Assembly: GCA_946699065.1 (NCBI GenBank)
Contig: CAMPDV010000256.1
Location: 62,001 to 126,000 of the forward strand
DNA length: 64,000 bases
Reading direction: 5' to 3'
From: Loxodes magnus
Taxonomy: Eukaryota; Ciliophora; Karyorelictea; Loxodida; Loxodidae
The notes below the pieces were generated by a model. That model made no database searches and was not told where the DNA came from. It was given only the letters and a program-made list of their open reading frames with translations. The translations under genes were made by a program, and so were the position numbers. Of the stretch, positions 5,300 through 42,500 are shown in pieces. The stretch's first letter is position 1, and every line of letters begins with the position of its first letter.

Positions 5300-8200
5300 T
5301 ACATTTTAATAAAACCAATCTAAAAAAAAAAGTTTTAACATTTCTACAAAAAAGTTTAAAAAAATTAAAAATTAAAAAATAAATTAAAAATAAACTTTAA
5401 AAAGTAAATCGTAAGTAATAGTAAAGCCAAAATACATTATATAAGATAAAAATATTTTAAACGAAAATGTTAATGAAATAATAAAAAAAATAAAAAATAC
5501 AAAACATGGAATTTATAACCTTATATTGAAAAAATTGTATGTCTAAATTAAAAAATTAAAACAAAATTAATAGAAAGATTGAAATAAAACGAATAAAAAT
5601 AGCCAAAATCTTAAATTTTAAACAAGCAAATTTCAAAAATGGTAAAAAAAATTAAAAAGGAAACATAAAAACTTTATTAAAAAATGAAAAAAACTACTTA
5701 CAAAATAAAAATAAGAATTAAAAAAGAAAAATAAAGTCAAAAAAATGAAAAAAATGAAAAAAAAAAATCTAAAAATGAATCAATGAAAATCCCGAATTTA
5801 AAAGTAATTATTGAAGACTACAATATAAAGAAAAGTAAATAATAATAGTTTGAAGTAGACATAAGAATCAAATTAAGGAAAACTGAATGAAAACTTAAAA
5901 AAAGAACTTTCGAAAACTTTAGAAAAATTTAATAAAGAGTCTAAGAGAGAAATCGAAAGTAAAAAAATAAAAATTTTAAATTTCATATACTGTTCTCATT
6001 CAAAGTACAAGTAAATAAAGAATACTTTAATTTAAAATTATAACATGCAAAAAAAGAGATCTTACAAATAAAAGAAAAAATTATATTTAAGTAAAACAGA
6101 AAAAAAGAACTCAAAAAAAAGAGGTCAAAATACGAAAAACTAACTCTAAAAGGAAATCAGAAACATGAAGAAAAAAAGCAAAACTTAAAAATATCAAAAC
6201 ATTAAAAAAATTAAAAAGAAAATAATACCTTAAATATAAATGAGATTGTTAAAGAAAAAAAATTTTTTTTTTTATTATAAAAAAGAACATATATTAAAAT
6301 ATATTAAAAAAAAATTGCAGAAAAGAAGAATATGAGTCTGCGATATCTTTCGTTAAAAACGAAAACAAAACAGAAAAAAAAAGTTAGTTGTTTAAAAAGT
6401 CGATATCAAAAAAGTCTTAAAAAAAGCACTAAAAGAAAAAAAACAAAAAAGACAAAACTTATAAAATTATGTAAAAGCTGAAGAAGACAAAAAAACATTG
6501 ATAATTCAAAGATAAAAAATAAAAAAATAGGAAATAAAACGAATATAAGCCAGAAGAAATCTTATGAAATAAATAAGCCAAGATTAAAAAAAAAATAGAA
6601 AAAGGCTGCTTAAATAAAAAGACATAAAGCTTAGTTAGAGCAAGCTAAAATAAATGAAAAGCAACCCAAAGCTTAAAAAAAAGAAAACTTGCAATATTTT
6701 AAGGCCTGAAGTAAGCAAAGCTTATTGAGTACTAAGAATATTTTTATAAAAGAGCGGAAGATTTTTTTTGGTATTGTTATTCTGATTTTTTTAAATATAA
6801 ATTTAAAAGAAGAAGCAAAATCATCATGTTTTTCCCCTTTTTTTTTAATTTGATTTTTTATTTCTTAACTCTTTTAATTTTTTTTATGTTTATATCTTTA
6901 CAATAATCTTTTTTTTTGAATTTTTTCTTATTTTTCTGGCACTTCCTTTTTTTCAGTTTTGATTATTCTTAAAATATTTCGATATTTTTTACATATTTTA
7001 TACTTCGATTAAAAAACTAGGAGTTTTTAGTTTTAACATGTTTTCTTTCATTAATTTTTTTACAATTCTTATATTTGCATTTTATTTTATTTGAATTTTT
7101 TGATGACTCCTTTTTTTTTCTATTTTTAATTTTTAAAAACATTCAATTAAAATTTATTTAATATCTTTTAAAAATATTGTCTGTATTGAAGTGTTTAACT
7201 TTTTTTTTAAAATCTAAATTATAAAGAAGCATGTTTCAGATTATATTTCTTCTTTGAGGTATTTTTAACTTATGATATTACACTACAGTCTTCTTAAAAT
7301 ACAACCTTTTTATTTAGATTTAAATTTAAATCTTTTTCTTCATCAATATTTCCTTTACAAAACAGCACAAAATGACTTTTACCCTCCAGCCATCAAAACT
7401 TTGCTTAGTAAGCTGAATTTACTTTTTTATATTGAATATCTTTTTCTACAGTTTGATCTAAATTTCTTTGTTTTTTTCCTTTATTATAAAGATCATTTTA
7501 AACACCTAACTCTTAAGTTTTATTTGCTATACTTATTAGTTTAATTTTGTAAGCTTTTTAGTTGCGCATTTTCTCTTCACTTAATCTTAACTTTTCTTTT
7601 TTTATCACTCTATTCTTTGGTTATTTCAGGTAGGGCATACATTTTTTGATATCTATTAGGTTAGTTGTTCCAATTTGTCACAAGTTTTTTTCTGCAATTT
7701 CTTTAGAATTTCTTATCAGAATCAAATTTCTTTTGTCCATTTTCGAACCTCTTAATTCCCATTTTTTTACTGTAAGAACTTCTTTATCATTTTTTCTGTT
7801 TTTCTTTCTTTTATTAACGGACTTTATTGAGACTCTTTTCGATGAAATTTAAGATTCATGTTTAGATAGTTTCCTTTATGGAAATTTATATTTCTTCTTG
7901 ATTCTTATTTTTGGTTTGAAGACAAAGACCTTTATAATAATAAGCATCTGCGTATTTATTATCAAGTTAAATGATTGATTGAAAAATTACATTTCTTCAC
8001 GATAATTTCCTAATTTTTAGAGGGAAAAACCTTTATTTTTAAGTTGATTGGATCGGCATTGCTTAGTTTTATAGCTTAGTTAAAACTTTCATTGGTTTCA
8101 TTTGTTTTTCCTAATTTTTTCAGATCAACTACTTTATTATATGAGCACTTACATTATTAGATCCTGCTTGAGATCTATATTGTAGCTCTAGGGGGCTTCG
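5300..8200. other. Long A-rich to T-rich skewed region
   Basis: From about 5300 to 6770 the plus strand is extremely A-rich (poly-A runs every few bases). At about 6775 it switches abruptly to T-rich and stays so to about 8200. Each half looks like decayed Lys-rich coding sequence in convergent orientation, but I cannot hold a single frame for either half. It may be two old inserts meeting tail to tail or a degenerate inverted pair. Confidence 0.3.
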
Positions 8201-9029
8201 TTGCATTTTTCTAACTTTTAAAGTACAATTCCTTATTAAAATGAAAATTTGCTTTTTTAGGGTCTATTATAATAGCTATATCAAAATATTCGATAGCTTC
8301 AATACTCTTTCCTTCTTTTCCTAATTAAATTCCTTATTAATTATATTATTACGCTTGAGATATTTTTTACAATGTCAAAAGCAAGTATTGACACTTGAAT
8401 AGATAAAGTCAATAATGTAATTTTTAATTAAGTAATAAATATTTTATTATATTTGATCTTTCTCAATTTAAATACATTTACTAGAATATTATTTATCTAA
8501 CTCTTTTAGTCTTATATAGATTTAAATTATTTACTTATGATAATTATATTATTAAGATTTGTATAGTAGTTGTAATAGTTTACTTACAATAATACATATC
8601 TATTATATTTCAATTAATTATTGCTAATTATGTTTATCACTTATAGTTTTTATTATATAGCTACTTTTAATTTAATATCAATCTTATTTCTTTTATTCTA
8701 TTTTTATTCTGTTTCCAAACTTAGAAAATGCTAGTTATCCTATTGATTTCTATTTGTTGGTTTATTTCTTTATAACAATAAATATTTGTAAATTTATGCT
8801 ACTAGTTAGAAAAGAATATCTAAGTAGCTTTCGCTCTAAAGGTAGAAATTAAAATTATAGTGCTGCTAAGATGTTAATCAATAGCCATTCCTATTTGTAC
8901 TCTACATACCATGATATAGCTATTAGAACAAATAAGACTTAACTACTAATTCATTATTATTCTAACTTCTATCCTAGTTAGTAATCTACTAATTAAATCA
9001 ATATTCATATCCAAAAAACTATATCAAGA

Positions 9030-9840
9030 TTATGAGAATGCTAGTAAGTAGATAGAACATCTAGAATTTCTGAAAATAGGTTGAGAAAGAAGTAAATAAG
9101 TTAGGATTATTTAAAAGCTTAAAATCATAGAAGATGCTAAAGATAACAATATATAAACATTTTAAGGTAATGCTAATATATTAGTGTCTAGCTAGTCAAC
9201 TATAAACTTTTTCCTAATAGGTTGCTAATTACAGATAGAAAGGAATAGATCTTTAACATATGCATTTAATTTAAATATGAGTCTAGATATTGAAGTTATG
9301 ATATAAAGAAAGATATATTTAAGCATTAAATGACAAGTACTTGCTTAAGAGAGAAAATAAATTAGTCTAAACTTGTAGCTTAGTAGGAATATTTAAAGAT
9401 TAAAATTGTTCTAAATTTAGTGGAGAAATTAATATATGTTTGGTTTTAAGAACAAGTAGAAAATGTAAAGCTACTCAATAATATACTTTATAAAGCCACA
9501 TTCATATCGTTAGGAGATTTGAACTTTATAGGTATCTTAGTTAAGTAATTTTTAAATTGAAGAAAAATTAAGAGAAAAAATCAAGATTTTTATAATTAAT
9601 GTATCAAAAAGTCCATATTGAATTTTAGTAATCGAAGAAATTAAGTCAACAATATGAAGAGTCTGAAATGCTTAGTCAGCAGACATAATAAACTTACTAA
9701 AAAAAGAAATAAACTTAAACGGATTTTCTTGCAAACCTAAAAGTGCTCTTCTATTAAATTAAAGAGAGGATAGTAGAAACCCTAATATCATTAACTTTTT
9801 AAGTAAAATGATAAAAATGATTGAATGAGTCTCTGAATTT
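9030..9840 (+). pseudogene. Gene X, left-arm copy, frameshifted and truncated
   Basis: Homologue of the right-arm gene X (49600-51473, minus). The shared core is IERNRSL, FNLNMSLDIEVMIQRKIYLSI. Directly after that core the left copy has one extra base (ATTAAATGAC against ATAAATGAC in the right copy), which breaks the frame. Several further differences follow. Homology stops near 9840, where the left arm passes straight into sequence matching right-arm position about 48670, so roughly 2 kb present on the right is missing here. I read this as the dead copy of a gene still open in the other arm. Confidence 0.55.
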
Positions 9841-10899
9841 CCTTTTTAGAATGTAGATTTAAAGGAAAATAACTAGATTAAGAAGGAACGATAATTTCTT
9901 CTTAGTTTTGCATAGTAGTTAATGTGTCGTCAGACTGATTTGTAATTTCTTTTTAATCTTCGAGTTTTCTTTTTTACTATTTTTAAGAAATAATTGTTTT
10001 GTCTCTCTATCTACTCTACTCTTTATCTACCCATCATCATTGATATAGTCATTACTCATATATTGGTCTTTAGTTTACTGATGTATTTAAGATTCATTAA
10101 CATCACGTTATGTATTATTTATTTATGCTATAAAGTTGCTTTAATAAAGTAAGTCGGGCTATCTTCAGCCATAAGATAGATCTAGAAGTTACTTTTAGGA
10201 TAGTTAAGTCACTTCCTTTTCTCATTTTAACCTTCCTTCATATAATTACCATCTTAAGGAGGATGAACTGCTTATGATATTTAGGATATAGTTTTATTCA
10301 TTTGCAGTCTAAGCATCTTTTTGAGCATTATATCGCAATAAAAAGACTATAAAGAATCAAATAGAGATAATAGAAAAACTAGCTGATATAAAGACAAGAT
10401 AGTCAAAAATAGTTTCTTCAGTGTTAAAAAACGTGAAAATGCATGAAATGGAATTTAAGAATAAAATAAAGAAGTTAAAATAATAGCCTACTAGATTTTC
10501 TTAAACTATATTAGGATCTTTAACAAACTACTTCTTTACAGGCATTCCTAAACCTACTAAAGCGTAAATCCAAAATCTTAGCCATAATTTTTCTATTAAG
10601 TAGCAATTACAAGGTTTACCAGAAAGCATCACGAAGCAATAGTAAAATCTATATGCAAAACGAAAATTTTTTAGAGTTTGGGATTGAATCTTTAATCAAG
10701 GAACTATCATGAAAACATTAATTGTTCATTAAGATAGTTTTGGTCGCTTTAAAGAACTAAAATATAAAGCTCTATCTAAATTTTCTTTTTTCTTTGACAT
10801 TACATGTAGAATTATAAATATATAAATTGAAAAATATTAAACATAAGATTACTAATGATTAAGCAGGAACTGGATGCTTATAACTTGACTAATTTCCAT

Positions 10900-12366
10900 T
10901 ATCCTCTCTTTTTTCATTTAAATTCAGTCCTAAGTTTGATTCTTCATAATTTTACATTTCTTCATTTCTCTCTTCCTAAATTTGATTCTCTTAATCTTGC
11001 TTATCTTCATTTTTTCCTCATTTTCTTGTTCTTCTACCTCTTATATAACTTAAGCGAGCATAATAAGTCCTGACTAACTACAATTTACACCTATAATAGT
11101 TAGCTAGTTGGATTTTTTCTATTGAGTATGATGTTCCATTATCTCATTTGTATTCGTTGATATCTCACATTTGGCACACTACATTTGAAGGTGTTTAAGT
11201 TTGGTTATAGCTTAGAACATATTCAACTTCGATTTTCAATTTCTTCAGTTTACCCTTCTTATATAGAATCTATCTCTTCAGATATTTAATAAACAGAAAG
11301 ATTTAAATAATGGATATAACTAAAATCATCCATTTCACATGAAATGTTTCTTCAAATAGAAAGATTACAAAAAAACATCCTTTAATATCATTGAGTAGCT
11401 TATAATTAGGAAGAAAAATTCCCTTTACTATCATTATTTCTCCTTTAGAGTTTCAACGGTTCAGATCATGAAAAAGAAAAGATTCGAGTCTCATAACTCT
11501 ATTTCTTTAGTAGGGATTTCTTTCTCCTTTCATAGAATAGAAGAATTATTTAAAGATTTATCAAATTTAGATTTTAGAAGTTTTATATGCAAAAGTACTA
11601 TTATTTATATAGTTAAAGGTACTTCATCTAGTTATTAGACTAGCTTATACTTCTTGTTCAATGTTAAGCTTTTTATATTAGAACTGTTTAATTATCTACG
11701 TAAGCAAAGACGTCTAATTTTAGGATATTTGGTACTTTATTTGCTAGTTAAGACATTGGTAGATACTATCTATATAACTCTGCAGGTTTTCAGATGTTAC
11801 GTTTAGTCTAACTCCTTAGTAACTTGCAACTGCTATTGCCAACTATTCTTGCTTCTCTATTTTTTAGGATAGATATCATAAGAACTATTTCATATCTAGA
11901 GGAGAAAAATTAAGAGTACTTAAATAACTAAAAGCTTTTAGTGCTAATATTCTTAATCTAATTTAAAGGAAATTCTTGATAGAATGATCCCGTACAAAAG
12001 AACCGGTATCTTAAGGGATAATCTTCATCTAAATCAGTAGCATAATCACACTTTAGAGTAAATAAGATATCTCATACTTTTCCTTTTTGAGAGCTCATTA
12101 AAAAATTTTCAGCTTGAGAAGCTCTGTATAGATTATTTTTGGCTAGTACACTTGATCACTCTTTATACTTCAAAAGTTAATATATGATAATTTCCTTACT
12201 CTAGTTCTTATGCCTTAATTTATATAAACAATTTAGTGACAAAGAAGGTAGCAGATTAGCAAAATCTACCAGAACTATGGTATCAAGAAGCTGTCTTATA
12301 TATCTACACTTGAATTAGAAGCAACTCTATACATTATAAAAATTAGCTGGATTTATTTTGCTATAT
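10900..12366 (-). pseudogene. REJ/GPS receptor relic, left arm
   Basis: The minus strand around 11.95-12.25 kb encodes AENFLMSSQKGK, an in-frame TGA (12072-12074), then DILFTLKC and EDYPLRYRFF. This matches the right-arm relic (46206-46380) and the REJ repeat of the large gene at 58-64 kb, which has a TGA at the equivalent place. After CTSQK the frame shifts relative to the right copy. The gene is interrupted on its 5' side by about 2.9 kb of extra sequence (12366-15283). REJ domains belong to the stalk of polycystin-1-like membrane proteins. Probably non-functional. Confidence 0.55.
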
Positions 12367-15283
12367 CCATTATTCTGTATCATTATAGTCACTGGAGATA
12401 CCTTATTATTGGTTATATTTAAGTACACTTTATCAGAGGTTTATTTTCGGTTGTTGAAATAGACACATACATCAAGTTCTAAGAATGCACATACTGGAAA
12501 TTACTATCCTTATAACTTAATGGAAAATGTAAAGAAATGACGCTTTTCTTCTACTTCTTTTTTGATTGCCTTATTATATGAAGTCTATTCTTAGTCTATA
12601 ACTTAACAATTTCATTCAAATCTTAATTCTTCACTCGGACTATCAATCACTATTTTATACAATTTGGAATTATCTTACTTAAGTCATCTCTATATACTCA
12701 TCACTAGAGATATAAACCTTCATCGACTTAACTAAATTAGCAAGCATAAGAATATTTAAAATCTTCATTTTACCAGAATTTTAAAATAAGAAAATTACAA
12801 ATAGGCCTTCATTATGCTATCTAAGTATCTTAATTTGAATCTATAAATCTAAAACTATTTGACTTGATGTCTTTTTGATGAGTTAGAGATTCTATTAGTT
12901 AGTAATATTTTGCTTTTCTAAAGCTTTTAGGTAGATCATTAAGAGAAAAGTTATTATTATTAAAGCCTATTAATCTTGCCTCTGAGATATATTTTTGCAA
13001 AGCCTTTGGAGTTTGATATCATTTAAAATATGAGATCAGTAAAAGCATGTAAAGTTATCTTTACTAAGTATTAAAATATCTATGTGATAAAAGCTTATTT
13101 CCAATGTAGCTTTAAACTCACTAAGGTTACTAAAGAAAAAAATCCAAAAAACTTATTTATCCAATTTAAAATAACTAAAGCAAATACCTTTTGTCATAAA
13201 AAAGAGTGCAAACTAGGATTTAAATATAAAAGCTTTCTATTCAAATTTAAATTTCATTACTACAACTTATAACAATAGATAGGACAAAAAACATTCAACA
13301 TAATTTAATTAAATAACAATACTCTTAATATAACGAAAATCCCTAATAAATAGGAATTAATTAACTAACTAAGCATTTCATTCACTATTTAAGCGAAAAA
13401 GAATATACTTAATTATACCATTTTTAGATTTATTTTAGTTGAAAAATTACTAAAATAAATTTATTAAGCTAGATAAACTTTTGTCTTAGCTTCTTGCTAA
13501 AAATATAATAAAATAAGCAGTTTAATAATTATTTAATTTCTTCTCTTTGAAAAGTGAATTAATGGAAAATAATTAGAATCTCATATATTTTTCATTTTAT
13601 CAATACAAATTATCCTTGCTATACTGGCTCTATTTAAGTTAGAAACACCTACTCTAATTTTAAATTAATACTAAGAAGATTGAATTTAAAGTCTCTCTTT
13701 AGTGTTAAAATGAAAATAATAATCTTAATAACTTTTTTACTATCTGATTAAAGAGTTTGAAATATGCTTATAATATTAAATAGAGATATAAATAAAGAAA
13801 GTGCATCCATTTATACTTTTAGTTATAGTTATATAATCTCTAACTTATTTAATAACTAAAGCTATTAATTCACTTATCCCTTCATAGTTAACTATAATCC
13901 TTTTATTTATAGATACTGACTAATTTTCTTTTTATGTTTTAGAGTATAAAATGCAGGAATAATATAGCTTCTTATTTATTAAATTAGAAAATAAAGGATT
14001 ATTTATACAGGCTACAATTTAGTATTAATAGATGTAAATTGTCTGTCTAACTTGTTAGCTTAAGAGTAAGTTAAAGCTTAACCCTTTAATACACTTCTCT
14101 ATTTTTAGTCTAACTTAAGCAAGTCTAAAAATGCTTTAATGCTATTTATTTGTAAATAATGAAGCTAGTTAATTATAGGTTAAAAGTAAGGAAATACTGA
14201 GTAAATAAAGTTCAAATGATATTAAAAAGGAATAAAGTTAAATTGTTAGCTAGAAGATATAAGTAATTTTAAATGTGATAAGTTGAGATAATTAGAACTA
14301 TAGGATTGTAAGAGATATGAATAAGTATGAGTTGATTAGAGAAATATTAGGGGTGGGATAAGAATATTAGGATATAATATACCCATTACAAGTAATACTC
14401 ATTAAATTAACTTCATAAGCAATTTATGATAAATAGGCTACTATTAAGAAATCCCTTATTAATTATAAAATAGTAAAGAAAGATAATTAGAACTCTCATA
14501 TTATTATCTTAAAATTTGTCTAGGAAAATAAGAAACTATGTTCATTAATATTCTTAAAGAAAGACCCAATTCATTAAGGAATGGTAAAAGCTATTAGAAG
14601 AAGCTTCAAAGTAAAAACCAAATAAAAAGATTATCAATTAGATAAAGCATTTGCTTTTATAATTTTTCAACGTAACTAGTTGAATATTTCTAAAGCTTAG
14701 TAAAAAGATAAATAAGGAAAAAGAATGTAAGAAGGGACATCATATATAAAATAATTGTTTTGTGAATTATGCAATTAAGGTTTAAAACCAATTCATATAA
14801 TTTTCTAGATTTTAACTAATTTAATATCTCTAATATTTAAGATACAAGTAAATAAGATTATCTACCTATCTCAAAGGTGAATAAAATTAAAAAATTTTGC
14901 TAAAGTAGAGATATAAAAATCCTTATGATTTGATAATTTTAATTAAATAGTTTGCTATTGTGTAAAATATATTAATTAATTGAAGAACTCTACATTATAA
15001 TTTAATGTGATTAAGTATAAGAGATATCTTTAATCTCTTAATTCCAAAGAAATTCCCAGTATAATTTTAAGAGATATTAAAAATAGGTAGAATAAGAGTC
15101 GGTATATCTTTTATAGACTGAAGATCTAAAACTTAATGAAAGTTGATGAATTTATTTAAGATTGTAATGTTTGATGTAATTATCTTAAGCAAAAACAAAT
15201 AAAAAATTAAGTATTCATATAATAAAATCCAACAGCTATATGGTTATTTTCATTAGAAAATCATTTCCTTATAAATCTTATTT
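12366..15283. other. About 2.9 kb segment absent from the right arm
   Basis: Left- and right-arm sequence match on both sides of this stretch: the TTTACAGACCAT side is at about 15290 here and 45980 on the right, and the GTTGCTTCTAATTC side is at about 12320 here and 46020 on the right. On the right the two flanks adjoin. So this is either an insertion on the left or a deletion on the right. I did not find clear terminal repeats. A minus-strand coding-like frame lies at 12480-13060. Confidence 0.5.
12480..13060 (-). CDS. Unknown ORF inside the left-arm-only segment
   Basis: One minus-strand frame reads as protein-like over about 190 codons if TGA is Trp: TPKALQKYISEARLIGF, NDLPKSFRKAKYYQLIE, then FRFIDSNQDTQIAQWRPICN and QVDEGLYLQWWVYRDDL. 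Charged and aromatic residues are distributed as in a globular protein. No family is recognised. Its position in a segment unique to one arm makes a mobile-element gene plausible, but I see no catalytic motif. Confidence 0.35.
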
Positions 15284-16212: not shown

Positions 16213-19200
16213 ATGGCTGAATCTAACAGGTGCAGCTCATGCTTAATCCATTTCGACTCTTAAATACGAATTCCCGTAACCCTTCCTGATGGACATCAAG
16301 TATGCCAAATTTGTATTCTTGAAGAATACTCAAAAGAGGGTTCTAATCAGTGCCCAAAAAGAAACTGTAGAAAAGTTTCATTCGATGATCCAAAAAATGT
16401 AATAAACTAAAACAACTAATCAAGTGAAAGTAAATAAGAATTCAAATAACTTCGACTTGAAGAAACTAAAATTGAGATATCTTATTAGCAAAAACCAAAA
16501 CTAATAAAAGTCAAGATTTTAAGTGAAAATGAAGAAGAAATAAATTTAAATGTAGAGGAAGGATAAACAATTAAATAACTGAAATAAAAAGTAGAAAGAT
16601 TAGAAGGAATTGACACTGATTTTTATGAACTTTATAGAGGATAAAAGGAATTAGATAGTTAGCATAGAATAAATAAAATGGAGAATAAAGATGAAATTTA
16701 GCTAGTCTTAAAGTTGAAAGAATGTAATTAATATAAATTTAAGGATGTGAGATAATAAGATAAAATTTAGGAAGTAAATATTAAAAATAGGAAGTAATTA
16801 ATCAAAATTAGTTTCTGAGATAATGACAAAATAATATGGTGAAAGTAAGAAAATTTAAAGAAGGCTAAAATGACTTCGACAAAAGTTTGAAATAATGTAC
16901 AGGAGGTAAATTTTAAAAAAGTGTGTAATATATTTATCAAAAGTTAGTAATACATTAAAAACTAGAAAGTAATAAATAAAATTTAAGAATGTAATAAAAT
17001 AAATAAGATTGTAACAATATAAGAAAGGGAGTAAAAACTAAATTTAGAATGTAAAAAATAAAGAAGATTGTAAAAAAATTATGTTAAGGTGGTAATTTAA
17101 CAAACCAAGAAAGTAAATTATTTAATATATAGCAAGTAAAAAAAACAAATAAAGGAAGTAAAAATTAAAATAAGATGGTATTTCTATTAAAAATAGAATG
17201 TAAGATATTTTAAATATTTATAGATGGTGAGATATTTTAAATATTTATAGATTGTAAGATATTTTAAATATTTATAGAATGTAAGATATTTTAAATATTT
17301 TAAATATTTAATAGATGGTAAGATATTTTAAATATTTATAGGGAGTAAGATGTTTTAAATATTTATAGAGAGTAAGATATTTTAAATATTTATAGGGGGT
17401 TAGATATTTTAAATATTTATAGATTTTAAGAAATTTTAAATATTTATAGGGAGTAAGATATTTTAAATATTTATAGATGGTAAGATATTTTAAATATTTA
17501 TAGGGAGCAAGATATTTTAAATATTTATAGTGTGTAAGATATTTTAAATATTTATAGATGGTAAGATATTTTAAATATTTATAGATTGTAAGATATTTTA
17601 AATATTTATAGATTGTAAGATATTTTAAATATTTATAGGGAGTAAGATATTTTAAATATTTATAGGGAGTAAGATATTTTAAACATTTATAGGGGGTTAG
17701 ATATTTTAAATATTTATAGGGAGTAAGATATTTTAAATATTTATAGTGTGTAAGATATTTTAAATATTTATAGCGAGTAAGATTTTTTAAATATTTATAG
17801 AATGTAAGATATTTTAAATATTTATAGATGGTAAGATATTTTAAATATTTATAGATGGTAAGATATTTTAAATATTTAAAGTGGGTAAGATATTTTAAAT
17901 GTTTATAGAGTGTAAGATATTTTAAATATTTATAGGGAGTAAGATATTTTAAATATTTATAGGGGGTTAGATATTTTAAATATTTATAGAATGTAAGATA
18001 TTTTAAATATTTATAGGAGGTAAGATATTTTAAATATTTATAGATTTTAAGATATTTTAAATATTTATAGAATGTAAGATACTTAAATATTTATAGGGGG
18101 TTTGATATTTTAAATATTTATAGATGGTGAGATATTTTAAATATTTATAGAGAGTAAGATATTTTAAATATTTATAGGAGGTAAGATATTTTAAATATTT
18201 ATAGATTTTAAGATATTTTAAATATTTATAGGGAGTAAGATATTTTAAATATTTATAGATGGTGAGATATTTTAAATATTTATAGAGAGTAAGATATTTT
18301 AAATATTTATAGGAGGTAAGATATTTTAAATATTTATAGATTTTAAGATATTTTAAATATTTATAGAATGTAAGATACTTAAATATTTATAGGTGGTTTG
18401 ATATTTTAAATATTTATAGATGGTGAGATATTTTAAATATTTATAGAGAGTAAGATATTTTAAATATTTATAGGGGGTTAGATATTTTAAATATTTATAG
18501 ATTTTAAGATATTTTAAATATTTATAGGGAGTAAGATATTTTAAATATTTATAGATGGTAAGATATTTTAAATATTTATAGGGAGCAAGATATTTTAAAT
18601 ATTTATAGGGAGTAAGATATTTTAAATATTTATAGGGGGTTAGATATTTTAAATATTTATAGGGAGTAAGATATTTTAAATGTTAATAGAATGTAAGATA
18701 TTTTAAGTATTTATAGATGGTAAGATATTTTAAATATTTATAGATGGTAAGATATTTTAAATATTTATAGGGAGTAAGATATTTTAAATGTTTATAGAAT
18801 GTAAGATATTTTAAATATTTATAGGGTGTAAGATTTTTTAAATATTTATAGAGAGTAAGATATTTTAAATATTTATAGGGTGTAAGATATTTTAAATATT
18901 TATAGGGTGTAAGATTTTTTAAATATTTATAGGGAGTAAGATATTTTAAATGTTTATAGAATGTAAGATATTTTAAATGTTTATAGATTGTAAGATATTT
19001 TAAATATTTATAGATGGTAAGATATTTATAATATTTATAGGGAGTAAGATATTTTAAATATTTATAGTGAGTGAGATATTTTTCAAATGTTTATAGGGAG
19101 TAAGATATTTTAAATATTTATAGAATGTATGATATTTTTTATATTTATAGGGTGTAAGATTTTTTAATTTTTTATAGTGGGTAAGATATTTTAAATATTT

Positions 19201-19824
19201 ATAGATGGTAAGATATTTTAAATATTTATAGTGAGTGAGATATTTATAATATTTATATTATTTATAGGGAGTAAGATATTTTAAATGTTTATAGAATGCA
19301 AGATATTTCAAATATTTATAGAATGTATGATATTTTTTATTCAAAGTTTGTATTTAAAAACTATTATAGTTAGTATTTTTTTATTATTATAAGAGGGTAT
19401 TAAATTACCTCAGGCGGTAATAATCTACTATAGGTATCTTTTTAATTTTTGATTGTAATAAATAATTATAAGATGGTTTTGCTTTTATTGAAGCTAGTAT
19501 TTTCTTATATGAGCTTGTATTGTTTTACCTAAGTTAGTAAGAAAATTATATAGAATGTAATATTATTTTTTTTTTATAGGGGGTAATGATTGATTTGAAA
19601 AGAAAGTAATTCCTAATATAATGTATTAAAGAATGTTTAAGTTATTGTTAATTTTAGATTATTTATACTAGGTAATTTTTTCTATTTTAGGATGTAAAGA
19701 ATTTAATGATAAGTAAATTTTTTATTATAGAGTGTAATTTTTGATATAAGCGGAGATTGATATAACATTTGACCACTTTAAATATTTATCTTAAATTAAA
19801 GTTTTATTATTTATTAATTTTTGA
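16213..19824 (+). CDS. RING and ubiquitin-like protein with about 100 micro-exons, left copy
   Basis: Starts MAESNRCSSCLIHF. A RING finger (residues about 7-55) has CX2C, H, CQIC and CPKRNC ligands, but the third zinc Cys is Asp (LPDGH; the right copy has LPCGH). A ubiquitin-like domain follows at about residues 95-165 (IKVKILSE, VEEGQTIKQLKQKVERLEG, ELYRGQKELD). Introns start at 16724. After two ordinary exons (16812-16844 and 16861-16905) the gene becomes introns of 16-24 nt separated by exons of 3 nt, all in phase 1. The tandem array is 17200-19324, followed by 14 or more distinct introns. The last exon (19751 on) reads SEIDITFDHFKYLSQI. The stop is TGA at 19822, or TAA at 19792 if TAA can terminate, since homology with the right copy ends there. 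Likely an E3-type or ubiquitin-linked protein; the role is inferred from domains only. Confidence 0.75.
16724..17199 (+). other. Run of unique micro-introns with one-codon exons (proximal)
   Basis: Nineteen non-identical introns of 16-24 nt, for example GTAATTAATATAAATTTAAG (16724-16743), GTAAATATTAAAAATAG and GTAACAATATAAGAAAG. From 16922 on every exon is one triplet: TGT TTA AAA AAT ATT GGA AAT ATT GTG AAA CAA GAA ATG AAT. With phase-1 joining these give V-F-K-K-Y-W-K-Y-C-E-T-R-N-E-Y. The matching stretch of the right copy (about 42690-42960) gives V-L-K-K-F-W-K-Y-L-E-T-R-E-E-Y. The introns themselves differ in sequence and by 1-2 nt in length between copies, so only the exon triplets keep register. 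Confidence 0.8.
17200..19324 (+). repeat. Tandem array of a 24-nt intron plus a variable codon, left
   Basis: About 79 units of typically 27 bp. Each is a near-identical 24-mer beginning GTAAGATATTTT and ending AATATTTATAG, followed by a variable triplet (ATG, GGA, ATT, AAT, GGG, TGT, AGA, GAG, CGA and others). Variation concentrates in the triplet. Variant units include a 33-nt intron near 17280, GTTAG, GTGAG and GCAAG 5' ends, and several TTAAG units that have lost GT. Read as introns this encodes a chain of single codons in the middle of the RING protein; read as a satellite it has no explanation for the fixed GT...AG edges. Confidence 0.8.
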
Positions 19825-21381
19825 CTTAATTACTTTAGTTATTTTAAAGTTACTAATCATATTAGCATTATATTTTAAGATCTTTCACACTTTTTTCACT
19901 TTATTAACGAAAAATTGATTCCTATTAAGGAGATGTGTGAATTAATAATTTAGGTAATATTTTGATAATAGCTTTAGTTTTTTTTCCTGATGTATTAGAT
20001 TTCTTGATAATGGTTCTTTGATTTTTAAAATATGTCTAGAATTTTTGATTTTTATTCTTTCTATTTATCTTTAAAATAGCTTCAGTAATTTTTGAATAGG
20101 AAGATAATATGTAATGATCTGATCTCCTCTCTATAAAATATGTGCTTAATGAATTATGAAATACTTATCTTAAATAATAGTAAATAAATATGTTGTTAGT
20201 TAGTTTGATTCAGCCATTCTTGTAAATGTAATAAAGTGTTAAAGTGTTACTGCGACATAATTGCTCCTATTTTTTAAATTTTTAATAGATAATTACTTAA
20301 TTTATAAGCTATAAAATGTAATAATATGATTAAAGCAGATGTAAGAATTTAGCTTATTTAACTTTATTCTTCTTATTATAAACTACTACTTCATTATTAT
20401 TCCTTTTCATTACTAATATTATATCACACTATTCATTCTATACTTTATAACCCTATTTTATATTCTAATTAATATATTAACTACTTATTTTTATAGCACC
20501 TATTTATTAATATCCTCTATCTATATCTTCTATTTTATTTAATCTACTAATATTATTAGTAAGATTTCTCTAGTTTAATACTATTAAGATGTAGTGTACT
20601 CTTAAACTACTTTATTTACATATCTTATGATTAACTTCTAATTTATGTCTTAATCAGAGTTATTTATTTCTATTATCATTTCAAATCTTAAGTACACTCA
20701 AAAATTATTTCTGTCTTATTATATACAAAATTTTAATTATTACTCTGTAAACATCAAATAAAATCAGTTACCAATAAATGTCGCCAACAAGTGTAATTGA
20801 TAAGGACAACTCTAAAGAGGTATTTTGATTTAAAAAATGAAACATAGCATAATATAAAAGTAAATATTATAAAAAATATAAACAAGTAACAGTCTGTTCT
20901 AGCTAAGCCTTTATAAATATAATAACAAAAGATCTGTTTAATTAAATTAAAAACATTATAATTTTTTAATATATGCTAAGAACATTTAATTATCACTCAC
21001 GAAAATTGTATAATATAATCCATCGTAGAGTAAATTTGAGTAAGGTTTAAATTATGAAATGAAAAGTAAAATAGAATATGAAAAATAGAAATATTAAAGA
21101 CTTAATTAAAGAAAGTAAACAAATATTTCTATTAGTCTAATTTCCATTACGAAGCTTTATACATAGAAAAATATAACAAAAAAGAGGTAAAATATATAAG
21201 AAACAAATTAAACTGAGCTTTAAGATAACTAACTAATTTTTCTATAAAATATTTATTATAGATGCATCAGATTTATCCAATAATGTATGCTGATGGTTAC
21301 AAAAGAAGTTAAATGATATATTTATACTAAAGAACAAAATAGTAAAAATAGAAATTCAAATATTTTAGAAGAACTAGATTT
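19825..21381. other. AT-rich stretch inside the left arm boundary
   Basis: Begins just after the inner limit of the inverted duplication (homology between arms ends at about 19797 and 39511). Low-complexity AT-rich DNA, with no gene or repeat that I can support. Confidence 0.35.
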
Positions 21382-22737
21382 ATGAATTTACCTATAAAGG
21401 ATATAAAATTGCAAGACGTTTCTCTATGCAAATATTTAAAAATATTAAATTTTCACTGGATAAAATTGGAAGACTAAAACTTAACCTTTCTGGAAAATTA
21501 AAAAAGTTTAGAAAGTATTAACATAGATTACTCAAATAATATAGCAGGGTCGTTTTTATTAGATTATTATCTAAACTTGAATTTAAAAGAATTATGTACC
21601 TATAGTAGGAATCTGAACTATAATATTCTTAAGCAATATATATAATTAAGAGGAATGCAAATCGAAAACCTAAACATAAATTGAAATTAATAAAGCTATT
21701 AACTTATCCATTTATATCCTAATTTGAATTAAATACAATTACTTAAGCTTTTAAATTTATCTGATTCACTCTTAGATAAAATAAATACCAGCAAATTAAA
21801 AAAAGATCTACTTTGAAGAAATTTTATTATCCTTTTAAGCTTTTTATAGCTTTTTCTCTTAATAATTTCCAAGTCTTTAATTTGCTAGACTAGTTAATTG
21901 TAAGAATTTTAATTAAATAAATTTAGAAAAGTTGCTATAAAACTCACTTAAGTTGGAAGCAATAAATTAAGAAAATTTGGATTAAATAAAGAAAGAAGAT
22001 TATAAATTAATAGGAATTTATTGCTATAACTTAAAAAAATAATATTACAATCAAATAATTAGGATTTGAATGAAGAATTATAAATAATATTCTAAAAATA
22101 CAGAAAATGCACTTAAATATAACCTAAAATAAAATAAATTAAAAAAGAAACTTTGGTGGATATTAGAGAAAGCTGCCAATTTTTATAAAGCTTTCATTTA
22201 TCTGATTGCCTTGTTAATAGTTAAAATTTAATACAAGAAATTACTCAAATATTGTAATTTAATAGACTAAGTCTTGATAACTGTAATTTATTAAATACTG
22301 ATATGATTGAGATAATAAAAGTATAGTAAAGATTAGAATTTTTAAGCTTATAAAGAAATTAAAAAATTACATAATAAGCTTTTCCCCTTTAAGACGAATG
22401 TAATAAAGACTTTCCAATTTATAAGATCTTAAGAAATTTAGAGCTATAAGGTTGCAAATAAATAAATGAATAATCAATTAAAAGCTTGAAGCGAAAATAT
22501 AACAAAATTAAATTAAATTAAATTATGATGATAGCTATAAACATCAAGAACGAGATGAAATAGATTTTGAGTTATGATACCTTTTAGAATGCTAACTTAA
22601 ATAAACTACTTTTTATTTTATTTTTGCAAATTTATAAATTCACCTTTCTTAAAATTAATTTTCCTTTATTTTCTTAACTTCTAATTCATATTAGAATTGT
22701 AAATTTAAGCATAAGTATAAAATATTTAAAAAGTTGA
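21382..22737 (+). CDS. Leucine-rich-repeat protein
   Basis: A single frame of 451 codons from ATG (MNLPIKDIKLQDVSLCKYL) to TGA (22735-22737). TAA and TAG occur throughout as Gln and two internal TGA codons (21682, 21814) are read as Trp. LRR units recur: LENQKSLESINIDYSNN, YPNLNQIQLLKLLNLSD, LQFNRLSLDNCNLLNTDM and ILRNLELQGCKQINEQSIK. The last is typical of the cysteine-containing LRR subtype seen in F-box/AMN1-like proteins. No F-box or signal peptide is seen. It probably forms a protein-binding solenoid; the partner is unknown. The end could extend if the last TGA is Trp. Confidence 0.65.
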
Positions 22738-22930
22738 TAAATAAAAATGTTTTGAAAATGTATAAAGTAAGATAATTTAAATTTGAGAAGCATAAAAATT
22801 AATTTCTTTAACTTATAATAATTAAATAATACTTTTGCTTATTATTGCTCTATTAATTAAGATAGAAATAATAATAGGATAAGTTAAGTGCTGAAAGACG
22901 AATATTATTTAATTTAATTTAAAATTTAAA

Positions 22931-23115
22931 GGATAAATTAAGCTTAGCAATTATAGAGAATTTTCATCTCTTCATGCTGGACACCAGATTGCTTTGGTAT
23001 TAAAAATAAAGCTTATAAATCTCTACTCCTCTCTCCTCCTTTTACTCTTGTCATTCCCAATTCTAACTTTATTTCTAATCAAATTATCTCTTGTAGATGT
23101 ATCCTAATTCATTTA
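22931..23115 (+). repeat. R2 repeat, copy 1
   Basis: About 185 bp matching 32831-33015 in the same orientation. Shared landmarks are CTCTTCATG, TTGGACACCAGAT or CTGGACACCAGAT, AAAATAAAG, CTCTCTCCTCC, TTTCTAATCA and CCTAATTCATTT. The two copies differ at many positions, so the repeat is old. It has no open frame of note and no terminal repeats that I can see. Confidence 0.65.
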
Positions 23116-23396
23116 AGCTCTATTAATTAAGATTTTATTACATTTTGTAATTATATTTGTAATGCTAATAGATTTAGACTCATATGACACTATTAAATAT
23201 TACTTAATAAGAATATTTAATATATTTTCATTAGCCATTTGTTGTGAATAGAACCTTACAGTATCTGTTTAAAATTTTTCCTTTTTAAAGAATAGTTATA
23301 TAATAATAATTAATAAACATGATTTCACATATATTTGATTCATCAGAATTAAAAGTTTATTACTAAATAAAACAATTATCTCCAAATTTGCTTGGA

Positions 23397-24014
23397 TCAT
23401 GTCTATTATAAGTCATGATAATTTTGATTTGTTCTTTCTAATAGTTTCCTATAGGTAGAGTCCCGATTATTTCTTATTGAATTCATAAACTGCATATTAA
23501 ATAATGGAAATTCTTTGTTTAGTTTGAGTATTTTTTTCCTTCGAATTTTTTCTTCTTTATTGCAATAAAATCTGAATATATTTACCTATTAATTTTCTAT
23601 GATTCTTTTCCTTTAGTCTAAATCGGAAACAAGTTCGCATTTTATGACTGACCATTTGAATATCAACATCTAATTATTTTCCGATTGGTAATATAATTTA
23701 TCATAGGTTGTTATTCCACATCCATCTGACCGTTCATCGATATCTTTTAGAGGAATATGCTTTCCATCAGCTCTGACAATTGCTTTGAATTTAGTTTTTA
23801 ATTAATATATTCTGATATTTGCTGCAAACTTATTTTCAGTTTTTGTATATTTGTTCTAATCATCATTTATTCATCTTTTTTCGAGCTTATACTTGTCTTA
23901 AAAGTTTAAAATTTCTATTGCATAATTTTGAGATCTTAAAGTATTATTTACTGATTGTAATTTGGCTGAAATGAATCCCTTTAAGAAGAGACGCTTTTTA
24001 AAGAAATGTTCCAT
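23397..24014 (-). CDS. Unknown 205-aa protein
   Basis: A complete frame from ATG (24014) to TGA (23399-23397), with TAA/TAG as Gln and one internal TGA as Trp (LEKRWINDD). Begins MEHFFKKRLFLKGFISAK. The middle is VRADGKHIPLKDIDERSDG followed by CGITTYDKLYYQSENNQ and FKWSVIKCELVSDL, then a basic tail (KEEKIRRKKILKLNKE). No transmembrane segment or recognised domain. It lies between the R2 repeat and the tRNA pair, alone on the minus strand. Confidence 0.55.
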
Positions 24015-24422
24015 TTTATGCTAATAAGCTTATAAAATAGATCTTAAATATAAAAATATTTTAATTAATATAATTATTACAAACCAGAAAACTTTAAAGC
24101 GTTATTTAATAATCAAATACATATACTTTTATGTTTGTTCAAACTTTATTCAAATTATTAAATCCTTTTAATAAAAACTAAGAGGTTGTTATTCCTAAAT
24201 AATTTAAGATAAAATAGACTTTTCTTTTTTCAAATAATTATTCAAAAATAAAACAAAAGCACTTAAATAAGTAATCTATCAGTCTCAAATTACATTAGGT
24301 ATATTTTGTTCTAATTGTTTAAATCTTTTAAGATTTAGTTTAATCTAAATAATTAAAATTAGATAAAGTAGTTTTCTTTATTATTAGCATGTTTAAATTA
24401 TTTTCAATTCTAATAAATTAAG

Positions 24423-24494
24423 TCCGCATTAGTCTAGTGGTTAGGATATTCGGCTCTCACCCGAAAGACCCGGGTTCAAGCCCCGGATGCGGAA
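24423..24494 (+). tRNA. tRNA-Glu (anticodon CTC)
   Basis: A full cloverleaf: acceptor TCCGCAT pairs with ATGCGGA, the D-arm has AGTCTAGTGGTTAGGAT, the anticodon loop is CTCTCAC with anticodon CTC, and the T-arm has GGGTTCAAGCCCC (B box). It decodes GAG. No intron. It faces the tRNA-Lys gene 38 bp downstream. Confidence 0.95.
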
Positions 24495-24532
24495 CTATTT
24501 TGTTATTCCTTCCAATTATATAAAATTAAAAA

Positions 24533-24605
24533 CGCCCAACGTGGGGCTCGAACCCACGACCATCAGATTAAGAGTCTGACGCTCTACCGACTGAGCTAGC
24601 CGGGC
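24533..24605 (-). tRNA. tRNA-Lys (anticodon CTT)
   Basis: On the minus strand, acceptor GCCCGGC pairs with GTTGGGC. The D-arm has TAGCTCAGTCGGTAGAGC, the anticodon loop is ACTCTTAAT with anticodon CTT, and the T-arm is GTGGGTTCGAGCCCCAC. It decodes AAG. It converges on the tRNA-Glu gene. Confidence 0.95.
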
Positions 24606-34989: not shown

Positions 34990-35884
34990 GATATATCTCC
35001 TGCATTTTTATTTAAAATAAAGGAACTTAGCATAGTAATTATTACTATTAATTTAATTAAAAATAAAAAGGATAAAATTAAGTTTATAGTCTTAGAAAAG
35101 AGCTCCAGGGTTCACTTGTTTTTGTTCCTGCTCTTTCTTGAACTAAAGGACTGCGTAGGACTACATTAGTCCGCCATCCTTGTCTCTCCCTCATCCACTA
35201 ATTATCGTTATAGTTTCTTCTTCCATTTTTATAAAACTCGTTGTTTCTTGAGTTGTAGAATTTCTTTCTGTATACTTATCCTGTTCTTGTTGGTCATATT
35301 CTGAAAAGTTAGTCTAATATTTATTACTTGTTAATTTTTTCAATTTCTTGTTTCTTCCAGCAATGATTTTTCTAGCATAAATAGCACCGAATCTTTTTGC
35401 GATAATAATTGATCTTATTTATTTCTTATTATTAGAATTCCGATTCGATTTCCATTGGGATATTTGATTATTAATCTTATAATTTTTAAATTATTACTTG
35501 TTATTATTCTTGTTTTTCTTAAAGTTGCTTTATTTGATATTCAATTTAAGAAAAATGAAATTGGAACATTTGAGGGACTTCGTTAAATTATTTATCAATT
35601 TATTCCAATTTAATTACTATTTACGATTAGATTTTATTTAATGATTCATCTATGGATGGGAATTATAGGTTTAATTATTCCATTAATTTTTCTAAATTTT
35701 CTATTTTTTATCTTTGCTTTTTCAAGTCATATTGGATATTTGATATCCTTTGCTGAACTGATTATGCAAAGGATTCCTTAGATTATTAATCTTTATCTTA
35801 TTAAGGCTATTCTTCAATTAAATTAGATTATTCTTATTTTTTCAAGTATTCGTTAATAGAGGTCTATTATTTCTTAGGTGCCAT
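34990..35884 (-). CDS. Gag-like coiled-coil zinc-knuckle ORF
   Basis: From ATG at 35884 (MAPKKQQTSINEYLKKQEQ) the frame gives a long Gln-rich coiled coil (RISNIQYDLKKQRQKIENLE and so on), then NIPMEIESEF, then a zinc knuckle CYLCQKNHCW (about 35361-35388). The motif order coiled coil, PM(E/D)IE, knuckle recurs in the ORFs at 53.1-53.8 and 54.68-55.2 kb, so this is a family of non-LTR ORF1-type proteins that would bind nucleic acid. The same frame continues upstream into the endonuclease ORF without a stop. The knuckle has CX2CX3H spacing rather than CX2CX4H. Confidence 0.55.
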
Positions 35885-36720
35885 TTTATTTTATAATAAA
35901 GTCGTATTATTCTTCTAGATTTTGTTCATCTATTAATTAATTAAAAAATTCATCTGTCCCTCTATATTCTTCTTTATAGGAATACTTTCAAATATCTTAT
36001 TTAAATTTTTTCAATTTATAACTTATTTTAACTTATGTGAACTTGTCATTTTTTTAGATTATTGGTTATCTAATTTAAGTTTATGTTATGAGTAGAAAAT
36101 GATCTGTTGTTAGCCCACTTCTTCTTAAACGTTAAATCTGAAGTTTTCTTATTGACTGTTTTTTTAATTAGTGAATATATAATAAATTATTTATCTTTGC
36201 TTTGTTTATTTAATTATATGAGTATTTTATCTTTCTTAGTTTATATCTATTAAATCAAAAGTTCGCACAAATTGCTATAGAAGTTCATCTACGTATTTTA
36301 TGTTTTATTATTTATTTAAATGAGCATTAAAATCTCCACATATGATTATTTTGTGATTTTTAAATTAGTCTAATAACTATCCTAGTTCTTAATAACAATT
36401 ATATATTAGTTCCACTGAGTGATTACTAGTTGGCATATAGATATTTATAACTATTAATTCATTTAATTTGAAGGCTTGTATCCTGTTATAATTATGCTAT
36501 ATTTGTATTTCTTCAACTTGATCTTCAATTTTAAAAAAAGTAAATAGTCCTTCTGTTTTTCCAGTTCCTTACAGGAAATATTATTTGAAGTTTTTGTTTA
36601 ATATTCCATATTCTTTAGTAGTTTAAGTTTCTTGGAGCATTAGAATTTCAGGTTATTTTCTTATATAAGATTATTTATTTCTAATTTTTTTTAAAAGTAT
36701 CCTCCATGTATATTTATGGA
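35885..36720 (-). mobile_element. LINE AP-endonuclease domain
   Basis: The minus-strand frame carries the apurinic endonuclease fold of non-LTR retrotransposons: RIGSINIHGGYF at the start, LMLQETQTTKEYG, LIVINIYMPTSNHSVEL and IIICGDFNAHLNK (about 36315-36350). The E of LQE, the N of MPTSN and the D and N of GDFN are the usual metal or phosphate ligands. No reverse-transcriptase domain follows; the frame runs instead into the Gag-like ORF. A 22-bp tandem duplication at 36714-36760 shifts the frame just upstream, so the element is dead as it stands. Confidence 0.75.
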
Positions 36721-36760
36721 TCCGATTCTGTATATTTATGGATCCGATTCTGTATATTTT
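36714..36760. repeat. 22-bp tandem duplication
   Basis: TATTTATGGATCCGATTCTG and its flanks are present twice in direct tandem. The duplication is not a multiple of three and disrupts the start of the endonuclease domain of the LINE. Confidence 0.85.
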
Positions 36761-39498: not shown

Positions 39499-39516
39499 TG
39501 TTTTTAATATATTAAT

Positions 39517-42500
39517 TTAAGATAAATATTTAAAATTGTTGAATGTTGATTCAATCTCCGCTTATATAAAAATTTACACTCTACAATAAAAAGCTTACTT
39601 ATCATTAAATTATTTACATCCTAAAATAGAAAAATAACTACCTAGTATAAATAATCTAATATTAATCCTTACTATAACATTCTTTAATCAATTATATTAG
39701 ACATTACTTTCTTTTCAAATCAATCATTACCCCCTATAATTATTACTAATATTACATTCTATATCATTTTATTACTCACTAAACTTAAATATTACAAGCT
39801 CATATAAATAAATACTAACTTCAATCAAATCAAACCATCTAATTATTATTTCTTACAGTCTAAAATTAAAAAATACCTGAAGTAAATTCTTACCGCCTGA
39901 AGTAATTTGATACCCTCTAATAATAAAAAAAGATACTATCTATAATAATTTATAAATACAAGCTATAAATAAAAAATATCTTACGATCTATAAAGATTTC
40001 AAATATCTTACCCGCTATAAATATTTAAGTTTTCTTACAATCTTTAAATAATTTAACTATCTTACAATCTATAAATATTTAAACTATCTTACAATCTATA
40101 AATATTTAAATCATCTTACCCACTATAATATTTAAACTATCTTACAATCTATAAATATTTAAATCATCTTACCCACTATAATATTTAAACTATTTTACAA
40201 TCTATAAATATTTAAATCATCTTACCCACTATAATATTTAAACTATCTTACAATCTATAAATATTTAAATCATCTTACCCACTATAATATTTAAACTATT
40301 TTACAATCTATAAATATTTAAATCATCTTACCCACTATAATATTTAAACTATTTTACAATCTATAAATATTTAAATCATCTTACCCACTATAATATTTAA
40401 ACTATCTTACAATCTATAAATATTTAAATCATCTTACCCACTATAATATTTAAACTATTTTACAATCTATAAATATTTAAATCATCTTACCCACTATAAT
40501 ATTTAAACTATCTTACAATCTATAAATATTTAAATCATCTTACCCACTATAATATTTAAACTATTTTACAATCTATAAATATTTAAATCATCTTACCCAC
40601 TATAATATTTAAACTATCTTACAATCTATAAATATTTAAATCATCTTACCCACTATAATATTTAAACTATTTTACAATCTATAAATATTTAAATCATCTT
40701 ACCCACTATAATATTTAAACTATCTTACAATCTATAAATATTTAAATCATCTTACCCACTATAATATTTAAACTATCTTACAATCTATAAATATTTAAAT
40801 CATCTTACCCACTATAATATTTAAACTATTTTACAATCTATAAATATTTAAATCATCTTACCCACTATAATATTTAAACTATTTTACAATCTATAAATAT
40901 TTAAATCATCTTACCCACTATAATATTTAAACTATCTTACAATCTATAAATATTTAAACTATCTTACCCTCTATAAATACTTAAAATGTCTTACTCTCTA
41001 TAAATATTTGAACTATCTTACCCACTATAATATTTAAATTATCTTACCCACTATAATATTTAAATTATCTTACTCACTATAAAGTATTTAAAATATCTTA
41101 CTATCTATAAAGTATTTAAAATGTTTTACATCCTATAAATATTTAAATTATCTTACATCCTATAAATATTTAAAATATCTTACCATCTATAAAGTATTTA
41201 AAATATCTTACCCGCTATAAATATTTAAATTATCTTACCCACTATAAAAATTTAAATGTCTTACACTCTATAAAGTATTTAAAATATCTTACATACTATA
41301 AATATTTAAAATATCTTACCCACTATAAAGATTTAAATGTCTTACCCTCTATAAAGTATTTAAAATAACTTACATCCTATAAATATTTGAAATATCTTAC
41401 TCTCTTTAGATATTTAAAATATCTTACCCTCTATAAGTATTTAAAATATTTTACCATCTTTAAATATTCAAAATATCTTACCCTCTATAAAGATTTAAGA
41501 TGTCTTTACCCTCTATAAATATTTGAACTATCTTACCCTCTATAAAGATTTCAAATATCTTACCCACTATAAAGTATTTAAAGTATCGTACTATCTATAA
41601 AGTATTTAAAATATCTTACATCCTATAAATATTTAAAATATCTTACCCCCTATAAAGATTTAAATATCTTACTCCCTTTAAATATTTAAATATCTTACCC
41701 ACTATAAAGTATTTAAAGTATCGTACTATCTATAAAGTATTTAAAATATCTTACATCCTATAAATATTTAAAATATCTTACCCCCTATAAAGATTTAAAT
41801 ATCTTACTCCCTTTAAATATTTAAATATCTTACCCACTATAAAGTATTTAAAGTATCGTACTATCTATAAAGTATTTAAAATATCTTACATCCTATAAAT
41901 ATTTAAAATATCTTACCCCCTATAAAGATTTAAATATCTTACTCCCTTTAAATATTTAAATATCTTACCCACTATAAAGTATTTAAAGTATCGTACTATC
42001 TATAAAGTATTTAAAATATCTTACATCCTATAAATATTTAAAATATCTTACCCCCTATAAAGATTTAAATATCTTACTCCCTTTAAATATTTAAATATCT
42101 TACCCACTATAAAGTATTTAAAATAACTCACATCCTATAAATATTTGAAATATCTTACCCGCTATAAAGATTTAAATATCTTACTCCCTTTAGATATTTA
42201 AAATGTCTTACAATCTATAAATGGATAAATATCTTACCCTCTATTAATGTTTTATATATCTTACATTCTATAAATATTTAAAATGTCTTACCATCTATAA
42301 AGATTTAAAATGTCTTACCCTCTATAAAGATTTAAAACGCCTTACTCCCTTTAAATATTTAAAATAACTTACATTCTATAAACATTTAAAATATCTGCCA
42401 TCTATGAATATTTAGGATATCTTACCCTCTATAAGTATTTAAAATATCTTACCATCTATAAATCTTTAAAATATCTTACATCCTTTAAAGTATTTAAACT

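Follow-up and report, generated by a model that had tools for sequence, protein, structure and literature searches.

One-codon exons between micro-introns: a predicted gene architecture behind a RING and ubiquitin-like exon in the ciliate Loxodes magnus

Here we analyze a 64,000-nucleotide stretch of the Loxodes magnus genome (hereafter the window; positions 62,001 to 126,000 of contig CAMPDV010000256.1, assembly GCA_946699065.1), in which an exon coding for a RING-like zinc finger and a ubiquitin-like (UBL) domain is followed by a long array of very short GT...AG segments that are separated by three bases each. Judged from its sequence, the array is very probably the coding continuation of the RING-UBL gene, from which the micro-introns would be removed singly so that every exon contributes one codon. 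The window holds two copies of this gene, W1 on the plus strand and W2 on the minus strand. The parts of W1 are:

16213 to 16723, plus strand: first exon, RING-like zinc finger and ubiquitin-like domain, 511 nt, exit phase 1
16724 to 16902, plus strand: entry zone of 3-nt exons, micro-introns and two longer exons (length varies with splice choice)
16903 to 17196, plus strand: unrepeated 5' flank, 14 units in series, exons 3 nt, introns 16-20 nt; phase-1 reading VFKKYWKYCETRNE
17197 to 19346, plus strand: repetitive block, a 27-nt unit repeated about 79 times, made of a 24-nt intron (consensus GTAAGATATTTTAAATATTTATAG) and a 3-nt exon
19347 to 19750, plus strand: unrepeated 3' flank, 3-nt exons, micro-introns mostly 17-26 nt, a few fused or degenerate units
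19751 to 19824, plus strand: last exon, beginning SEIDITF; first in-frame TGA at 19822-19824

In Pfam comparisons the W1 first exon falls narrowly below both cut-offs (ubiquitin 1.7e-5, zf-C3HC4 0.0035). The true stop of W1 is uncertain, because in L. magnus UGA is the sole stop but is also able to encode Trp (PMC11441545).

The plus strand from 16724 to 19750 consists nearly entirely of GT...AG segments, mostly 16-26 nt long and spaced by 3 bases, which confirms what a preliminary description of this DNA had claimed. The longest run of GT(13-27 nt)AG followed by three bases is 14 units in the 5' flank (16903-17199), 9 in the 3' flank and 23 in the block, whereas 500 dinucleotide shuffles of each gave at most 3, 3 and 4. 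It had also been claimed that the pattern does not depend on the tandem repeat, and this holds, as the unrepeated flanks by themselves give 14 and 9 units in series. With any exon length from 0 to 12 other than 3 the runs reach at most 4 units, on the antisense strand 1, and in the rest of the window, on both strands with 3-nt exons, at most 3. Parsing of 16724-19750 results in 110 units, 105 of them with a 3-nt exon; here and below, the unit parser favours 3-nt exons and demands GT/GC...AG, which biases its 3-nt fractions upward. Run lengths, AG-to-GTA distances and genome-wide counts of 3-, 4- and 6-nt patterns are free of this bias.

Genome-wide, two consecutive 3-nt exons with introns of 17-20 nt (a range that leaves out the 24-nt block intron) have 2647 matches vs 61 for a reversed-pattern control. 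The 6-nt exon pattern has 9 matches vs 42 in its control, and the 4-nt pattern 266 vs 31, with one 94-bp satellite on contig C343 making up 89 of the 100 listed places. This satellite, which carries splice-like motifs and is present on C343 and C917, dominates the 4-nt count.

It was shown that the predicted architecture extends beyond the RING-UBL family within the L. magnus genome. L030, a TRIM-like gene, has a ubiquitin-like domain (1.3e-8), a B-box (2.9e-7) and a weak RING ahead of its array, all except the RING passing their Pfam cut-offs, and 3-nt exons at 180 of its 184 introns. A ubiquitin-like domain lies directly before the array of L031 (3.5e-6; 84/97 exons of 3 nt) and of L032 (2.4e-9; 26/27), counts that come from redone parses since the earlier ones (88/98 and 28/28) began too early. 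The array of L033 stands behind a kinase domain (3e-33) and has 96/109 such exons (97/123 in an earlier parse), while L029 has 129/143 and L036, with a UBL-like sequence recognized by eye, 22/23. Counts of AG-N(d)-GTA, for which no parser is needed, peak at d=3 in all seven stretches tested (159 in L030 vs 2-10 elsewhere; 111 in L029, where the next value is 26), and the control histogram, taken from 7 of 12 arbitrary stretches, is flat at 95-128. In L029 and L030 neighbouring introns resemble each other no more than any two introns do, which indicates that these arrays are not repeats; in L031 a short series of identical units stands in tandem. The GC content is 0.34 in exons vs 0.14 in introns for L030 and 0.28 vs 0.13-0.18 for L029, L031 and L033; a value of 33.5% is published for L. 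magnus coding sequences (PMC11441545). No Pfam family is matched by the peptides that the spliced arrays would give, in phases 1 and 0 for L030 and in phase 1 for L029. Two further features were observed in these genes: read in phase 1, the L030 array gives a Cys-rich tail behind the TRIM-like RING/B-box/UBL protein, and 16 introns of L033, 41-47 nt long, each resemble a pair of introns that meet at a zero-length exon (AG|GT).

For L. magnus an intron length of 16-25 nt is usual, and it is the exons that are the abnormal part. RNA-seq introns of this species have a mean of 19.3 bp and a mode of 17 bp, 93% are not longer than 25 bp and those below 16 are negligible (PMC11441545). The array introns have the same size range (15-27 nt in L030; 16-25 nt in L029, save three longer ones). 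In that study introns were derived from HISAT2 mappings, with masking of tandem repeats that reach 1 kb or more; the word 'microexon' is absent from its main text, and one-codon exons are not mentioned in the sections consulted (PMC11441545).

The second copy in the window, which had been overlooked in the preliminary description, occupies the minus strand between 44585 and about 39480:

44075 to 44585, minus strand: first exon, homologous RING/UBL, 511 nt, holding one in-frame TGA (Trp or stop)
43165 to 44030, minus strand: entry-zone insertion of 866 bp with a 16-nt direct repeat at both sides (target-site duplication)
42672 to 42963, minus strand: unrepeated 5' flank, 14 units in series, one-by-one homologous to those of W1
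39963 to 42671, minus strand: repetitive block, exons 3 nt, introns 22-25 nt, longest run 90 units
39561 to 39962, minus strand: unrepeated 3' flank, units mostly homologous to those of W1
39480 to 39560, minus strand: last exon, beginning SEIESTF; the far end is approximate and runs into LINE-like sequence

The first exons of both copies are 511 nt long and therefore both exit in phase 1; the block of W2 is the longer one. Across 15 consecutive 5' flank pairs, the intron length differs in 7 (in 6 of them not by a multiple of 3), while exon length and GT/AG differ in none. When 11 pairs from the 3' flank are added, which were hand-picked and exclude units with apparent splice-site loss or fusion in one copy, the 26 pairs differ at 0/52 GT/AG sites and 0/26 exon lengths, and at 10/26 intron lengths and 57/376 interior positions.

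Ten further paralogs were examined, and the flank skeleton was recovered in 11/12 copies including W1 and W2. The chain scan covered L009-L028, 20 stretches of 28 (L001-L008 are 3-kb pieces within L009): the RING-UBL exon and a chain of micro-introns are present in all eight loci selected by their block intron, and none of 12 arbitrary stretches, which were chosen by hand and include five (L024-L028) that are entirely satellite, has a chain of at least 4 units. In three of these, L024, L025 and L026, a period-123 satellite crosses the whole 10-kb stretch and its translation looks WD40-like by eye. In a ten-member parse, 883/926 exons have a length of 3 nt once units past the presumed 3' end are cut off (899/963 before). 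The RING-UBL exon evolves under purifying selection, with dN/dS of about 0.46 (mean dN 0.116, dS 0.250) over 9 of 10 copies, L011 being omitted as its exon is not readable in one frame. A protein search with this exon found no homolog at E 0.001, and an exact-pattern search for the 24-nt block intron gave no match in viral or prokaryote contigs.

For 15 consecutive flank units in 8 registered copies, pairwise comparison gives 0/840 differences at GT and 0/840 at AG; because the parser demands GT/GC...AG, these zeros mean that no unit was lost. Intron interiors differ at 581/4731 positions (0.123) and triplet positions 1-3 at 0.121, 0.214 and 0.090, where position 2 would be the third codon position in phase 1. 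Intron length varies in 9/15 units and exon length in 0/15. A comparison at a larger distance uses two paralogs whose RING-UBL exons are 49% (L034) and 52% (L035) identical to W1. Their 15 ordered flank triplets share 78-89% identity with the triplets of W1, L012 and L015, the 3 of 8 close copies used in this comparison, whereas with shuffled order the identity is 37-39%. Intron interiors reach 0.75-0.78 vs 0.72-0.77 for shuffled partners (sd 0.03), no more than about 1.7 sd over background, and intron lengths differ in 7-9/15. Read in phase 1, the conserved flank would code roughly for V[LF]KKYWKYxETRxE, the peptide being VLKKYWKYFETR and variants; among its substitutions several are silent in phase 1 and the L. 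magnus code, such as TGG/TGA (Trp) and TAT/TAC (Tyr), as read by eye. The idea of micro-introns with one-codon exons, as first proposed, thus gains support from the flank sites kept in 8/8 copies, from the conserved ordered triplets and from the other genes, whose arrays are largely non-repetitive.

Another question is whether the triplets are joined in order. Codons formed in L030 from the last base of one triplet and the first two bases of the next have more uneven frequencies at lag +1 (z 6.3) than in shuffles that permute triplets inside blocks of 20, whereas lag -1 gives z 0.6 and the remaining tested lags -2.6 to 1.8. Lag +1 is the top lag also in L033 (z 3.1), L029 (1.9) and L031 (1.6), and all other lags tested in the four genes lie between -2.6 and 2.1. 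Split Cys codons (TGT/TGC) appear in L030 at 38/179 junctions at lag 1 vs 19-23 at lags 2-8, and 5000 order shuffles gave a mean of 22.3 and a maximum of 32. Such dependence and Cys excess are expected from in-order joining of the exons with codons in phase 1. Regarding the phase, the claim that all introns fall in phase 1 agrees with the exon lengths in W1, W2 and L029 and, by eye, in L031 and L032. It did not extend to L030, where the first boundary allows phase 0 with a 15-nt intron, as the parser chose, or phase 1 with a 20-nt intron, which was forced, and codon usage is indecisive.

Several observations weigh against the reading that the array codes one codon per exon in phase 1, and this ambiguous L030 boundary is one of them. 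The codon-usage likelihood gives z 2.7 for phase 0 and 2.5 for phase 1 in L030, places phases 2 and 0 (3.7, 2.8) over phase 1 (-1.2) in L029 and yields no preferred phase for L031 and L032. In L030 the within-triplet pair y-z, which phase 1 would split, is also linked (z 5.5) and the phase-2 concentration has z 2.4; linkage is seen for the pair y-x(+1) of L029 (z 3.9), and L033 has z 2.1 also at lag -1. The flank pN/pS, measured on 11 copies, is 0.58, 0.49 and 0.77 for phases 0, 1 and 2, with 65/300 column shuffles as low as phase 1. Between W1 and W2 the triplets (12/78 sites) diverge as fast as the intron interiors, and the units left out of the hand-picked 3' pairs count here too. The flank skeleton of L011 was not recovered, and L014 matched only after its flank was re-registered. 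Introns with lengths divisible by 3 are relatively depleted genome-wide in L. magnus (PMC11441545), unlike those of the arrays, whose mod-3 classes are about equal in L029, L030, L031 and L033. W2 holds the TGA inside its first exon. The W1 array, which had been described as resolving almost completely into GT units of 16-26 nt, does so for the most part, together with a few introns of 33-34 nt and some exons of 14-27 nt, and among 72 block introns of 24 nt, 5 start with TT and have lost their GT and 3 start with GC. The block triplets look unconstrained: they are strongly variable while the introns are almost identical, and the 37/72 introns that are exact copies of the consensus carry ten different triplets. 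Simple unit duplication does not yield such a block, for which homogenised introns or diversifying triplets are needed, and this does not fit. The conserved-triplet evidence covers the flanks; inclusion of the middle-block triplets in the mRNA is presumed, and the block could be skipped.

A mechanism that fits most of these data is that the GT...AG segments are tiny spliceosomal introns of the ordinary kind, each of which would be taken out on its own. With introns in phase 1, every array codon would be split over two exons, the last base of one triplet being followed by the first two bases of the next. Intron definition would remove the micro-introns one after another, since it is improbable that one spliceosome could accommodate two adjacent introns of this size simultaneously. 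Copies may lengthen or shorten by tandem duplication of the intron together with its triplet, where each unit adds one intron and one amino acid without a frameshift. The window blocks are tandem intron-plus-triplet units with higher-order repeats and would therefore have multiplied by unequal exchange or slippage, while the flanks and the other array genes may be old, diverged arrays. Such growth is visible in the window family only, because the neighbouring introns of L029 and L030 show no trace of it.

Frame safety does not account for exons of exactly 3 nt, as it permits 3 and 6 nt alike. One tentative option, which we regard as possible but not probable, is that AG-NNN-GT acts as one composite signal and that one or several spliceosomes advance along the pre-mRNA and keep one codon per step, a distinct Loxodes mode. 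Such a signal would account for a length of 3 nt instead of another frame-safe length such as 6, and for the presence of arrays in several different genes, often directly after a ubiquitin-like domain.

An alternative to inclusion of the triplets is that the array serves as a ladder that is mostly skipped, the 3-nt exons being stepping stones for long-range or recursive splicing that removes all or large variable parts; in a functional version, combinatorial inclusion would diversify the tail of the protein. Frame-neutral 3-nt exons would let any donor pair with any acceptor, and the lost W1 donors could be absorbed as 51-nt in-frame introns, of which the ten-member parse holds 25. The unconstrained look of the block triplets and the long, pair-like introns of L033 point in the same direction. 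Yet the ordered flank triplets are conserved in the two distant paralogs, the linkage between neighbours is found mainly at lag +1, and frame safety would also allow 6-nt exons, which do not rise above their control. We therefore consider a mostly skipped ladder improbable.

It could also be argued that the array is unspliced or without function: a shorter gene might be followed by a satellite that carries splice-like motifs, or the copies might be pseudogenes in decay. This would fit the tandem repeat of the window block and the state of W2, with its insertion, its TGA and its run into a LINE, but neither the flanks nor the L029 and L030 arrays are repeats, the RING-UBL exon is under selective constraint and the flank units are kept 15/15 in 8 copies, which makes such an origin very unlikely.

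Paramecium-type internal eliminated sequences (IESs) have TA at both ends. The array segments are short and precise and in this recall ciliate IESs, and their excision from DNA at macronucleus formation had been raised as an alternative, but they end in GT/AG and not TA (many in CAG, AAG or GAG, read by eye), they persist in an assembly of 705.73 Mb that we take as macronuclear (published sizes are 706 Mbp for the macronucleus and 848 for the micronucleus) and no classical IESs were found in L. magnus (PMC11441545), so that this idea is hardly credible.

Removal of the micro-introns with retention of each codon, as preferred here, has partial likenesses in known systems. Recursive splicing uses ratchet points, at which a donor directly follows an acceptor so that splicing proceeds stepwise within long introns and zero nt are kept; in the Loxodes arrays the donor follows in the same manner but three bases would be kept per step. 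Among the genes with serial short exons, the aphid bicycle and megacycle genes have many tiny internal exons, nearly all of one phase, and megacycle has more than 100 microexons (PMC9168663); its protein has about 2000 aa and thus many codons per exon, unlike the Loxodes arrays with their one-codon exons and introns of 16-27 nt. The micro-exon genes of Schistosoma contain serial short exons down to 3 bp, but their exons span 3-81 bp and their introns reach 5 kbp, and the consulted part of that article describes no uniform series of 3-nt exons with introns shorter than 30 nt (PMC10526429). The arrays would share with both groups the long series of very short exons, for which a common phase is suggested by exon lengths but is ambiguous in L030; the Pfam domains differ from those families. 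Single exons of 1 or 3 nt in plants and other eukaryotes show that the spliceosome can include exons of 1-3 nt, for which the authors favour intron definition with stepwise removal; these are isolated, whereas a Loxodes gene would have up to 180 (PMC4674806). In a search of PMC, which does not extend to bioRxiv, no paper held both 'loxodes' and 'micro-exon', and no gene with a long series of 3-nt exons was found among the matches listed, which is not proof of absence.

The window contains some other features. A LINE-like element lies on the minus strand at 35294-39541, downstream of the W2 last exon, with an Exo_endo_phos_2 match (E 1.5e-7) and a zinc-knuckle-like motif seen by eye, and the 866-bp insertion in W2 has an oligo-T tract and a plus-strand frame with several stops. 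Two tRNA genes, Glu(CTC) and Lys(CTT), are located on opposite strands at 24423-24605. A neighbouring polycystin-like gene with a tiny intron of its own had been proposed, yet the plus-strand frames of 8001-13402 and 19901-24102 gave no such Pfam match, the remaining window being scanned in part.

If this reading is true, a stretch of protein reaching almost 200 residues would be encoded one codon per exon, and the splicing machinery would be pushed far past the cases described in the literature consulted here. Exon definition would be ruled out for these genes, and the minimum size of exons and introns as well as the order of splicing would become directly testable in one locus. A satellite could then grow within a gene, with each further copy costing one amino acid. 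Finally, a part of the L. magnus genome that is masked as low-complexity repeat would be coding, in genes that ordinary aligners can hardly see.

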